From Chondrilla cf. caribensis (taxonomy: Eukaryota > Porifera > Demospongiae > Chondrillida > Chondrillidae): a stretch of 64,000 nucleotides of DNA. The position numbers were made by a program, and so were the translations under genes. The stretch is from the NCBI GenBank assembly GCA_964020155.1, contig OZ026570.1:2849279-2913278 (forward strand). The letters are read 5' to 3'. The first letter of the stretch is position 1. Each line of letters starts with the position of its first letter. The notes under the pieces were generated by a model, which saw nothing but the letters and a program-made list of their open reading frames with translations, made no database searches and was not told where the DNA came from. Positions 17,219-52,672 of the stretch are shown here, one piece after another.

Positions 17219-17844
17219 TTACTTCAGACGCACAAACAGTGGACACTTTTCCACATCTCCAGAATACTCCCTCTCAATCAACCTGTACATCCTCTCGAAG
17301 AGAGACACGTTCATGCCATTCTGTAGGGATACATCACTGCTGAGTAGAGGATGATGCTGTTGATGGTCTCCAACCAGGACAACACGGAGAGCTTGGTGGA
17401 TGGCAGAGAAGGTCTCCGGTTCTGTGATCATCGAAGCATTGTAGACAACAACCTGCACAGGTTGGAAGTATCGACATATCCTCTCACTGGAGGCCTCACT
17501 ACAGGTGCAGATGATGACGTCAAAGCTTTTTGACAGTATCTCCTCTTCTGCCTTTGATGTGAGCTGATCATACTTCGCAATGTCTGATAACTGAGGAAGA
17601 TTCTTACCACGACATTTGTTGAAATCGTCTTCCCATCGTTTCAGCTGATCAGAATACGATGATGTGGCATGGGTGTGATGATGGAGACTAAACTCGCTAC
17701 AATCATCACTTTGTACAGGATCCTCAGGGACTTCTCCATCAAAGATACCGCAGTCATTATAATATGGGACACAGTAGTGCTGACGTTCCAGCTTTCTGTC
17801 ACTGATTCGTAGTACCCTGACACCATAGTCACCAGAACTACACA
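17219..17844 (-). CDS. Gene B exon 17: degenerate helicase II and stop codon
   Basis: Equivalent to gene A exon 17, but a G-to-T difference turns the GAA codon after LK into TAA (17221-17219). Gene B therefore ends at FVRLK without using the repeat-border donor. Motif III (VVLVGDHQQHHPL) is present; Walker B is VVVYNASMITE. One Cys codon fewer than genes A and C in the KCRGK segment. Confidence 0.75.
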
Positions 17845-50100: not shown

Positions 50101-52672
50101 CTTATAATATAATATAATATAAGTTTTCTATTCAATTCAACAGTATTATACTACATGAGATTTTTACTGTTATAGATGCTGTGAAGAACTTAAACGTACA
50201 TAATGCCAAGAATTGATGCACACTACATTCTTTGGACCATACTTGAATCACACACCAAAGTATTCATCTCACTATTAATAACTGTTATGTTATCAATCAT
50301 TACAAAACATAATACTGTAATAATATTATGAAGTTCAGTGTACATAGGCATACATGCCACACAAATTTACAATGTGCTGGTTTACATAACAATGACAACA
50401 CTGGGCATATCAACATACCACACTGCTAAAGGTTTTACCAATACACACCTTTCCAATGATCCAACTCCTTTTTTCCATGAGCAAAATGGCATTTTTGTCC
50501 CCTAAAACAAGGGACGGGGTTCTTACAGAATTCCAGTTTACTGGCTGCTGTTCTCGGACGGCAACCCTCCTTTTTCTCAGGGCTTGAACTCACACTGACA
50601 GGCCTACCCTACATTTATATTGTCAAATGAACAGTTTGAAACAAGTCACACGAGTATCACAACCGCCAAATCACATGCTACCTATCTGTGTGTATAGATC
50701 TGAGCGTACAGCATAGATAAACCAAATAGCATTTGTGGTCAAAAGAGTAAACGCCAATTTTAAATAACTTGAAAGGTCGTCAGATATAATATGTAACATT
50801 GTAACAGTTGCTTGATATATATACTTAGTTGTGTATTCTGCATTAATTATACACTCCGGCCACTGACAACACAGTAAGTATATTATTGATGATCATCTCT
50901 CCAAGCCTGTATGTGTATTGTTATGCAATTACTGTGTAAAATTTGCTTTACTTGTACATGCATACCTTTAGATGCTTGCAACGTCCTCGCCGTGCATCAG
51001 AAAGACGGACTGCCACATCATCCCAACAGTCACAGCAAACAGTGGCTAGTTGGGATGGATCTGGGAGGTTGCCATCCTTACAAGCTGGCTTGGTTGCATC
51101 TACGAAATGAATACACACTCCAGTGTTGGCAATGCACCATTCAGTCTAATGCACCCACCAGTGCATGTATAAGACATGTATAATATTATTTTGGATAGAT
51201 GCAGGGAAGGGTACACTTGAATTGACCGTGGCCAGGTACTGAATCGAATCCAAATATCAGCAAAAAGTACCTTCCACTACTGCGCACGTGTATACTGTAT
51301 TTTATCGTTACAGTGCAACTTGCTTAGTAAGTACAGTATAACAATTATACAAACAAAAATGATTAGTACATATTATATAGTAACTGTATTATTACAGTGT
51401 ACTGTATTATTACAATTATAACGATTTCTTACTACTGATCTTCCGTTGTGGTTGTTCCTGCCCAGCAGTGAGGGTATCCTGTCCATCCCTTGGTTTGATG
51501 GATGGTCTGTGATGAATATACCTTGCAGCATTCCTAGACTGTGGAGACCGAGATCCTTGTGCTGCTTCCGTTTCAGACTCATCACTTGTATCCGAGTTCT
51601 CCTCCTCTCCTATGTTAGCGGGATGCTTGTACGTGGCCATTTCAAATGTTGTAACGGAATCAGGCATGACAGTGGAAGGGTTGGGTTTTTCCCTGGTACT
51701 TTCCGGAACATTTTCAAAAGCATCGTAGTATTCTTGTGCAGCATCGGCTTGTGGAATTTCAAAATCCGGTACTTGCAGACTATAATCTTCAGAGCAAGAC
51801 AGAGTAGACCCAGGTTCCTGACACACGTCCAGGTCCTTCCTAGTCACTTCAGTGATCCCTCCTTCAGTTGGAACCTGACTTACTTGGCTGGGAAGCACAT
51901 TTGACTCTAAAGCAGAGATTTGACCTGTCGCTATTGTTTGAGGAACCTGTGTACGTATACCGCATACAAACGTGATTATTGACAGTCAATAACTACAATT
52001 GTATGTAATAATAATGTATATGCATAACAGAAGATTCCACAAAATTGTACACACAGTACTATAATAAGCTGGATGTTGATGACATATTACATAAACATCG
52101 AACCAATTGAATGTAATTCGCTAGCAATATAATTATTTTCGTTGTCAGTGGTAATACGTGTGGAGATAAATTACCTGGCTAGTGAGTTACATTCAATTTT
52201 TCGTATGATGATATCTAGCTGGTCAACCATTTTTGCATACGCGAATATTGTCAACAATATAGAATAGACAGGTAATTTAAAGAATAAAATTGAAACAAAT
52301 AAAACTCACTCTTTCAAAAGTTTCCAATTGTGTCACAAGTTGATTCTCGGTCACTTGGCTCTCGCGGGGAGGTAGTCTAGCTCGAGGGTCCAAGAGATCG
52401 GCAAGATCAACGTGGTCCGGACACTCGGACTTACTCTCTCTCAAAACCTGGGCCAACAGGTACAGTTTACGATCATCACAGTGGTCGAAGAAGTAATTGA
52501 GGAACAGTCGAGCTGCAACAACGCCAGTCTTCTCTTGTAACTCGACCACGAGCGAGTGGTCATCAATCACGCCCTTGCTGAACAATTTGCTAACAATGAT
52601 GGAGACATTTAGCTTCTCTTCGAGGGCTGAATAGTGCTCTTGTAACAACTTCTTCGGCTTTTTCCTAGACAT
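38144..52672 (-). CDS. Gene C: diverged CARD-HELZ2-like SF1 RNA helicase
   Basis: Seventeen exons in phase: 52672-52310, 51946-51433, 51099-50966, 50608-50449, 49749-49397, 49156-49061, 48504-48341, 48052-47074, 46711-46505, 45743-45507, 44965-44890, 44404-41052, 40430-40315, 40212-40097, 39830-39690, 39459-39313, 38962-38322. They give about 2599 codons. The domain plan equals gene B. Exons 1-11 and most of exon 12 are clearly diverged from A and B. Exons 13-17, their introns and the downstream spacer are nearly identical to A and B, so the 3' third has been homogenised. After exon 17 the frame either uses a donor at the start of a TG repeat (a CTC TAG last exon at 38149-38144 is possible) or runs into the repeat and stops at 38178. 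Helicase I is intact; helicase II and the RNB region are degenerate as in B. Confidence 0.83.
38216..38321. repeat. (CA)n microsatellite at the exon 17 donor of gene C
   Basis: A CA tract with CACGCA and CATGCA variants at its left end. Its right edge is the splice donor of exon 17, on the opposite strand. Confidence 0.9.
38322..38962 (-). CDS. Gene C exon 17: degenerate helicase II, donor at the edge of a TG repeat
   Basis: Matches gene A exon 17 almost base for base. Walker B is VVVYNASMITE and motif III VVLVGDHQQHRPL. The exon ends EQEIM and the intron begins gtgtgtgtg, the first units of a roughly 100-base TG tract (38321-38216 on the plus strand as CA). Unspliced, the frame adds a 47-residue tail made mostly of Cys-Val before stopping at 38178. 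Confidence 0.72.
41052..44404 (-). CDS. Gene C exon 12: helicase I motifs V-VI plus RNB-like region, mosaic
   Basis: 3353 bases open. Motif VI is FNTIVTRSQSLVIAVGNP. OB-like: TLVISGVDDRRCAFDKATIQV and VVFAVVKQGDTRPVVCAVDP. The RNB acid site again lacks aspartates (VQPDGISSCAFSVDV). Three blocks are nearly identical to A and B: the first roughly 250 bases (44404-44150), 42300-41980 (YTSFTSPFHCIGDLF to TTRVAEV) and 41645-41052. Between them the protein differs at about half its positions. This alternation is the clearest conversion signature in the window. Confidence 0.85.
47074..48052 (-). CDS. Gene C exon 8: SF1 helicase I, RecA lobe 1
   Basis: Walker A IVGPFGTGKTRVIAAS, IAAHHRRTADEYIEKYF, Walker B FIDEGAQ and motif III IIAGDHQQV. 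The pre-helicase part starts CDGKYILTWYGKDD and runs into MEQYIADNVRQAATHV, a stretch shared nearly unchanged with A and B. All ATPase motifs are intact. Confidence 0.86.
48539..48906. repeat. (CA)n microsatellite, intron 6 of gene C
   Basis: A 370-bp compound CA repeat with CATACA, CACGCA and TATATA interruptions, ending about 35 bases upstream of the exon 7 acceptor on the minus strand. Frames of up to 219 codons across it are artefacts, although one runs into real exon 7 sequence. Confidence 0.92.
49397..51099 (-). CDS. Gene C exons 3-5: Cys-rich and CCCH zinc-finger region
   Basis: Exon 3 (51099-50966) has ATVCCDCWDDVAVR and RGRCKHLK. Exon 4 (50608-50449) has the CCCH finger CKNPVPCFRGQKCHFAHGKK, spacing C-x5-C-x5-C-x3-H. 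Exon 5 (49749-49397) has GCQVCL with TIIVYKDEQRKHLHHIRYP, then CGFSDPRSCQFPHSQFEEIL. These match HELZ2-type fingers and are intact. Confidence 0.8.
51433..51946 (-). CDS. Gene C exon 2: acidic linker
   Basis: 171 codons of low complexity (EENSDTSDESETEAAQGS, YDAFENVPEST). It is longer than in A and B and barely alignable, except for TYKHPANIGEEE, which matches YTYPANIEEGDE. It starts after tacacag in phase 0 and ends AGTA/gtaaga in phase 1. Confidence 0.72.
52310..52672 (-). CDS. Gene C exon 1: CARD-like domain, diverged
   Basis: 121 codons starting MSRKKPKKLLQEHY. It shares LLQEHY, LNVS, KLFSKGVIDD and a closing DLADLL pattern with the A and B exons, but is under half identical. That the same exon position carries the same fold in a diverged copy argues that the CARD is an old, kept part of the gene. 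Phase 0 donor (AGA/gtgagt). Confidence 0.72.

Follow-up and report, generated by a model that had tools for sequence, protein, structure and literature searches.

We analyzed a family of HELZ2-like helicase genes on the minus strand of a 64,000-nucleotide stretch of DNA from the sponge Chondrilla cf. caribensis (assembly GCA_964020155.1, contig OZ026570.1, positions 2,849,279 to 2,913,278), hereafter the window, which is part of contig 25 (C25) in a 137-Mb genome of 37 contigs. In its mitochondrial COX1, TGA encodes Trp and AGA occupies a conserved Arg position, in keeping with sponges and cnidarians. A sequence-only reading of the window had proposed that a CARD is fused to a HELZ2-type helicase in tandem gene copies. 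CARDs usually serve as signalling adaptor modules and are carried by virus sensors such as RIG-I. As judged from gene models and related proteins, the proposed in-phase splicing of a CARD first exon to HELZ2-type exons holds. We consider it somewhat probable that the genes encode a HELZ2-derived, nuclease-dead RNA receptor that signals through its N-terminal CARD. The sequence itself shows that a CARD is present and is joined to the helicase exons, that the CARD genes share a clade, that the CARD-clade rows tested have lost the RNB motif and that the window copies have lost the second-helicase motifs; signalling through the CARD is predicted.

Identity of the first exon

All five CARD exons proposed for the window were recovered, namely those of genes A, B and C, one extra exon ahead of gene A and one ending at position 286, which is cut by the window edge (Table 1). 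The curated cut-off of the Pfam CARD family (PF00619) is 23.9 bits, and it was exceeded in four of the seven C25 copies or cassettes (gene A, 25.9; X36 at 36361-36702, 28.1; gene C, 28.8; gene D, which lies outside the window, 29.6). Scores below the cut-off were obtained for the edge copy (20.0), gene E (21.8), C15a (16.9), C15b1 (18.5) and the protein P0003 (15.3), and no CARD match was found for gene B exon 1 or C15b2 in a Pfam search of the exon alone. By alignment, the gene B CARD exon was 34% or 40% identical to that of gene A, and it was retrieved by the P0003 CARD query with an E-value of 6e-5.

A profile of nine CARD sequences matched 26 chains among the PDB sequences at E up to 5, of which 21 are CARD-bearing by molecule name (RAIDD, Apaf-1, caspase-9, ASC, CED-3 and MDA5) and five are not; these matches were weak, the best being RAIDD with an E-value of 0.029. 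A PDB sequence search with one CARD as the query found no CARD chain. Thus, the assignment to a death-fold family withstood the profile searches: the Pfam cut-off was exceeded by three of the four exons that lie whole in the window, and the PDB profile matches, though weak, were mostly CARD-bearing. The exon at 52310-52672 was assigned to no Pfam family.

The CARD exon is under purifying constraint: of 15 pairs compared, the 10 for which dS was finite gave dN/dS values of 0.24-0.48, and the five involving gene B were saturated. Each of the CARD exons checked (genes A to E, both cassettes, C15a, C15b1 and C15b2) had an ATG start and a phase-0 GT(A/G)AG donor. The free choice of this ATG by the splice-aware model is a weak test, since the input began at most 71 bases above it.

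Joining of the CARD to the helicase exons

Homology-guided, splice-aware modelling placed gene A at 35026-17219, with 16 exons that were phase-consistent and free of stops; the end of exon 16 is uncertain. The same modelling gave 15 exons of consistent phase without a stop for gene B, the last donor being uncertain, and a possible equivalent of gene A exon 6 near 49156 was kept out of the model. Copy C is not a clean full gene, because its exon 5 carries an in-frame stop and a frameshift; its frame would survive if exons 4 and 5 were both skipped. Thus, the claim of three full genes spliced in phase was borne out for genes A and B but not for gene C.

A protein search identified P0003 (2571 amino acids, on a contig of 8108 bases) and P0004 (2560 amino acids, 8076 bases), both from another source, which were 43% identical to gene B across 99% of its first 1160 residues. 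Their open reading frames (ORFs) run without a break, whereas the window gene is split into 17 exons, and they were therefore taken for transcripts, probably cDNA. In global alignment, the 15 gene A exons tested mapped to P0003 in order, each starting right after the last residue of the preceding one, at 32-77% identity (44% for the CARD exon); the minimum for gene A was 19%, for exon 14 on P0004. Likewise, 14 gene B exons were collinear, at 29-66% identity over P0003 and P0004. The gene A stop (17221-17219) falls at the same place as that of P0003 and P0004, and the C-termini are alike. The suggestion that exons 1 and 2 belong to a separate gene failed, as a related full-length ORF joins the CARD to the helicase; separate CARD genes were rejected on this joining and on the exon-by-exon collinearity.

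The order of a first superfamily 1 (SF1) helicase (Hel1), an RNB region and a second helicase (Hel2), as in HELZ2, was present in the window models and in P0003 and P0004. The RNB family PF00773 scored above its cut-off in gene A, gene C and P0003; gene B reached 26.4 bits against a cut-off of 29.3, and no match was reported for P0004. Putative CCCH fingers were recognized by eye, one each in exons 4 and 5 of gene A, and none were reported by Pfam in P0003 or P0004 at E 0.1. The SF1 helicase, RNB-like region and second helicase follow one another as proposed, with an RNB lacking its catalytic aspartates and a degenerate Hel2.

Enzymatic state of the helicase and RNB regions

The Hel1 motifs GPFGTGKT and DE(G/A)AQ were intact in all 14 loci found in the genome. 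Human HELZ2 is described as an interferon-stimulated, RNA-degrading protein that degrades RNA 3' to 5', and its D1346N/D1354N/D1355N mutant did not do so (PMC9839780). A D..DD motif with the spacing of human D1346/D1354/D1355, IDEPGSVTLDDA, was present in the CARD-less gene C15c and absent in all seven CARD-clade rows tested (A, B, C, C15b1, C15b2, P0003 and P0004). The motif was not seen by eye in P0015, a partial protein resembling C15b. With seven rows against one, the comparison is only suggestive of RNB loss being tied to the CARD clade.

In Hel2, the Walker A lysine and the Walker B DE were lost in genes A, B and C (CPGTGG and YNAS). The corresponding sequences were PSGTGG in P0004 and SNGAEH in P0003, both with YNAS, and Hel2 stops soon after motif III in the window copies and in both proteins. 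P0015 retains a whole Hel2, and C15b retains the Hel2 motifs as far as read. As far as tested, the trait common to the CARD clade appears to be the combination of a dead RNB and a Hel1 whose motifs are intact.

The HELZ2-like family in the genome

Gene and CARD searches were confined to this one genome among animals. A Hel1 search gave at least 14 loci. A blind PF00619 search of the genome, run at E up to 1, yielded 81 matches, not all of which reached the cut-off. For 5 of the 14 loci, such a CARD match lay on the same strand and no more than 12 kb upstream. The chance expectation was 0.05 loci, a figure that is only rough because CARDs and tandem genes clump. The count rose to 8 of 14 once three matches from HELZ2-CARD queries were added by hand. 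In a Hel1 tree rooted on the long-branched P0006, the eight CARD genes formed one clade with P0003, P0004 and P0005 (support 92/95), and two C20 genes, C15c, C15d, C17 and C18 fell outside. No CARD was seen in the upstream DNA read for C15c and C15d; for C20, C17 and C18 no upstream CARD was found by genome-wide searches alone, which are insensitive. In a protein search with the C15b2 model, the proteins found matched no more than 6-15% of the query length.

Two of the related proteins differ in architecture. P0005 (1589 amino acids), a relative of gene E, combines CCCH-like fingers and Hel1 with a C-terminal region in place of RNB and Hel2. This region has two parts, each recurring many times in the genome, and the last part scored 23.0 bits against a HELZ2-CARD profile; P0005 is perhaps a second death-fold-like helicase architecture. 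The tail had no Pfam match over the cut-off, and among the 90 places scored for it none was on C25, near gene E. In P0006 (1058 amino acids), a HELZ2-type helicase is combined with a Ser/Thr kinase resembling, by eye, an eIF2alpha kinase. This protein is possibly an RNA-sensing translation brake; its kinase part had no match in the genome at 1e-20.

In the C15 genes, the CARD is followed by an exon (minus strand, L055:2449-3465 and L062:4377-5303) that appeared helical by eye and had no Pfam match over the cut-off. A CARD at C12:775091-775420 was 72% identical to that of C15b1, and no Hel1 match was found on C12; this CARD module may sit in another gene.

Kinship of the CARD with RIG-I-like genes

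Genes for RIG-I-like receptors (RLRs) were detected in the genome by the C-RD domain at four places and RIG-I_C at three. C13 carries two closely similar CARD exons, one of which lies about 1.9 kb upstream, on the same strand, of a 743-amino-acid ORF with RIG-I_C and C-RD. The possibility that this CARD is the C-terminus of an RLR was rejected, as the ORF stops 15 codons past C-RD and no GT(A/G)AG donor occurs in the 300 bases read after it.

A profile of 12 HELZ2 CARDs was compared with 27 genomic CARDs; of the 81 Pfam matches, loci were available for 30, from which three HELZ2 CARDs were dropped. The two C13 CARDs ranked first, with 56.6 and 56.2 bits, followed by the next at 39.0; the P0005 tail remained at its 23.0 bits. 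When built from only the C15 HELZ2 CARDs, the profile placed the C13 CARDs above the C25 HELZ2 CARDs, and outside HELZ2 the gene B CARD query ranked the C13 CARDs first (23.2) and third. In a CARD tree, the C13 CARD was sister to all 12 HELZ2 CARDs (98/79; HELZ2 node 85/59), with long branches flagged. These results are suggestive of a kinship between the HELZ2 CARD and the CARD exon beside the C13 RLR gene, which we treat as a lead. RLR N-termini are described as differing among animals, those of Amphimedon having a death domain (PMC8998645).

Proposed function and alternatives

In the receptor that we favour, the fingers and the dead RNB channel would hold foreign RNA, and Hel1 would use ATP to engage it. 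An ATP-driven change would free or cluster the CARDs, which might then seed a CARD adaptor, possibly that of the animal's RLRs, with an antiviral or cell-death response as the outcome. The CARD would have arrived as a phase-0 first exon, probably through exon shuffling.

Several observations weigh against parts of this reading. P0003 and P0004 are 95% alike over residues 1-1100 and then diverge, and they are possibly assembly mixtures. P0005 lies inside the CARD clade, yet no N-terminal CARD was seen in it, only the death-fold-like tail. The RNB contrast has a single CARD-less row, C15c. In the CARD comparison, the P0003 query put C20:1916887 (33.2 bits) and three C5 places above C13 (24.6 and 23.7), and the C15b1 query put many C10, C6, C22 and C5 places above C13 (17.5); the profile test included C7 alone among these rival CARDs, and those on C20, C5 and C10 were outside it. 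The copy used in the CARD tree was the second C13 CARD, downstream of which no RLR domain was found, and the joining of the C13 CARD to the RLR is by position only.

The sequence-only reading had taken a fusion of this kind for an independent way of arriving at an RNA sensor that signals by CARD. The genes may represent such a route, a proposal strengthened by the absence of the catalytic RNB residues. Its fuller form is tentative and, to our judgement, possible: a second class of CARD-signalling RNA receptor on an SF1/HELZ2 chassis, into which an RLR-type CARD exon was shuffled, with nuclease loss, tandem expansion and use of the same adaptor as the RLRs.

Fairly unlikely is a coupling of the helicase by its CARD to caspases or an Apaf-1-like platform, so that RNA binding would lead directly to cell death rather than through the RLR adaptor. 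The PDB profile matches, mostly to CARDs of Apaf-1, caspase-9 and RAIDD, point in this direction, but the scores are weak and reflect which structures have been solved. The genome is rich in CARDs, as its 81 matches at E up to 1 indicate, and other CARD groups outscored the RLR-side CARD in some single searches; against this, the HELZ2-CARD profiles favoured the CARD beside the RIG-I-like gene among those compared.

Two further alternatives appear improbable, and to a similar degree. The protein could be a regulator or decoy that still binds RNA and restrains RLR CARDs or adaptors in the manner of LGP2, the loss of RNB and Hel2 reflecting this role. The degeneration of both regions and the extra CARD cassettes would fit such a protein; the retention of Hel1 motifs in 14 of 14 loci, the constraint on the CARD and the whole Hel2 of P0015 would not. 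Alternatively, the genes could encode a cell-autonomous helicase restricting RNA or retroelements, with the CARD serving only to oligomerise it, although this fits poorly with the usual signalling role of CARDs and with an RNB that is dead in the rows tested. A precedent is human HELZ2, which is reported to limit LINE-1 mainly through its helicases, the effect of the RNase mutant being generally minor (PMC9839780). Finally, small separate CARD genes adjoining the helicase genes, as cassettes of exons 1 and 2 that have no helicase exons might suggest, are extremely improbable given the exon-collinear CARD and helicase in one ORF of P0003 and P0004 and the upstream CARD at 8 of 14 loci.

Comparison with known systems

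The CARD-helicase receptor that we favour resembles RLRs such as RIG-I and MDA5 in its N-terminal CARD and RNA helicase, and its CARD lies in a phase-0 first exon, as does the CARD beside the C13 RLR ORF. Unlike RLRs, the sponge HELZ2 proteins have an SF1 UPF1-like helicase, one CARD, CCCH-like fingers and an RNB remnant. No superfamily 2 helicase with RIG-I_C and C-RD was reported in the window exons scanned by Pfam; matches occur elsewhere in the genome. ZNFX1 is also of the SF1 class and has NFX1 zinc fingers; to our knowledge, it has neither a CARD nor an RNB. The similarity to ZNFX1 is that its helicase is reported as a sensor of double-stranded RNA ahead of the RLR pathway (PMC11959080, PMC12585102). 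Sponge CARD-NLRs are likewise described as a multigene receptor family with the CARD as the signalling module, built on NACHT-LRR instead of the helicase chassis found here (PMC12909245).

The sponge genes share with human HELZ2, as described in PMC9839780, two SF1 helicases flanking an RNB in the same order and a retained Hel1 Walker A. They differ from it in the N-terminal CARD and in the lost equivalents of D1346, D1354 and D1355, and the window copies differ also in the lost Walker A lysine and Walker B of Hel2 and a short C-terminus. In the sponge Dysidea avara, two genes named HELZ2 are reported to be expressed at a lower level under a symbiont treatment (PMC11229196), which hints at microbial regulation. 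Among the papers listed in full-text literature searches, judged by titles and the starts of abstracts and with most subscription journals outside the scope, there was no description of a CARD on HELZ2. If the proposed receptor is real, CARD-coupled RNA sensing would exist on two unrelated helicase superfamilies, and HELZ2 could turn into a signalling receptor by the gain of one exon and nuclease loss. The presence of CARD-bearing and CARD-less paralogues within one genome makes this switch directly testable.

Organization of the gene family in the window

Table 1. Features of the HELZ2-like genes and CARD cassettes, in window coordinates.
Feature	Position	Strand	Remarks
Gene A exon 1	34685..35026	-	CARD; ATG start; phase-0 donor GTAAGT; PF00619 25.9 bits; aligns to P0003 17-127
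Gene A exon 2	34063..34399	-	Linker, acidic/Ser-rich; model and P0003 alignment
Gene A exon 3	33625..33773	-	Cys-rich; model and P0003 alignment
Gene A exon 4	32897..33068	-	CCCH finger (by eye); model and P0003 alignment
Gene A exon 5	32400..32755	-	Second CCCH-like finger (by eye); model and P0003 alignment
Gene A exons 6 and 7	26955-26866, 26330-26209	-	Model and P0003 alignment
Gene A exon 8	24408..25404	-	Hel1 (SF1), GPFGTGKT and DEGA; PF13086 match
Gene A exons 9-11	23884-23690, 23589-23359, 23290-23215	-	Hel1 RecA2
Gene A exon 12	19511..22989	-	Hel1 end, OB-like, RNB without catalytic Asp; PF00773 35.2 bits
Gene A exons 13-17	17219..19292	-	Degenerate Hel2 (CPGTGG, YNAS); stop codon 17221-17219; exon 16/17 splice uncertain
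Gene B exon 1	52310..52672	-	Divergent CARD; donor GTGAGT
Gene B exons 2-5	51946-51433, 51099-50966, 50608-50449, 49749-49397	-	Model and P0003 alignment
Gene B exon 6	48341..48504	-	Model and P0003 alignment
Gene B exon 7	47074..48052	-	Hel1; PF13086 72.1 bits
Gene B exons 8-11	46711-46505, 45743-45507, 44965-44890, 44404-41052	-	Hel1 RecA2, RNB without catalytic Asp
Gene B exons 12-16	38322..40430	-	Degenerate Hel2; final splice uncertain
Gene C exon 1	14888..15229	-	CARD; PF00619 28.8 bits
Gene C exon 5	12594..12944	-	In-frame TGA and frameshift
Gene C remaining exons	1934..14604	-	Hel1 10077-9084, RNB 7652-4183, Hel2 remnant 2546-1934
Extra CARD exon (cassette exon 1')	36361..36702	-	PF00619 28.1 bits
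Extra exon 2'	35735..36071	-	337 nt; start by eye; donor GTACAG; phase-compatible with gene A exon 3
CARD exon of cassette ahead of gene D	2..286	-	Truncated by window edge, whole in genome (L005); PF00619 20.0

The exon at 36702-36361, ahead of gene A, and the one at 286, ahead of gene D outside the window, appear to belong to additional CARD cassettes that lack their own helicase exons. The cassette at 36702-35735 (exons 1 and 2) and the CARD exon at 286-1 are possible alternative CARD modules. The 3' ends of genes B, A and C (40526-37200 compared with 4072-1000 and 19385-16590) were more similar than their middles, non-exonic DNA included, which suggests that gene conversion or duplication took place recently. 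The DNA separating exons 5 and 6 of gene A contains a plus-strand stretch (28187-31747) that resembles a long interspersed nuclear element, with an endonuclease, a reverse transcriptase and a C2H2-like end.

Beside the gene family, minus-strand ORFs at 53588-62045 carry YccV-like and Transglut_core2 domains, neighbours which we take to be an FBXO21-like pair. A tandem repeat with a 25-base unit was observed at 54126-56112, comprising 79.5 copies with 94% matches.

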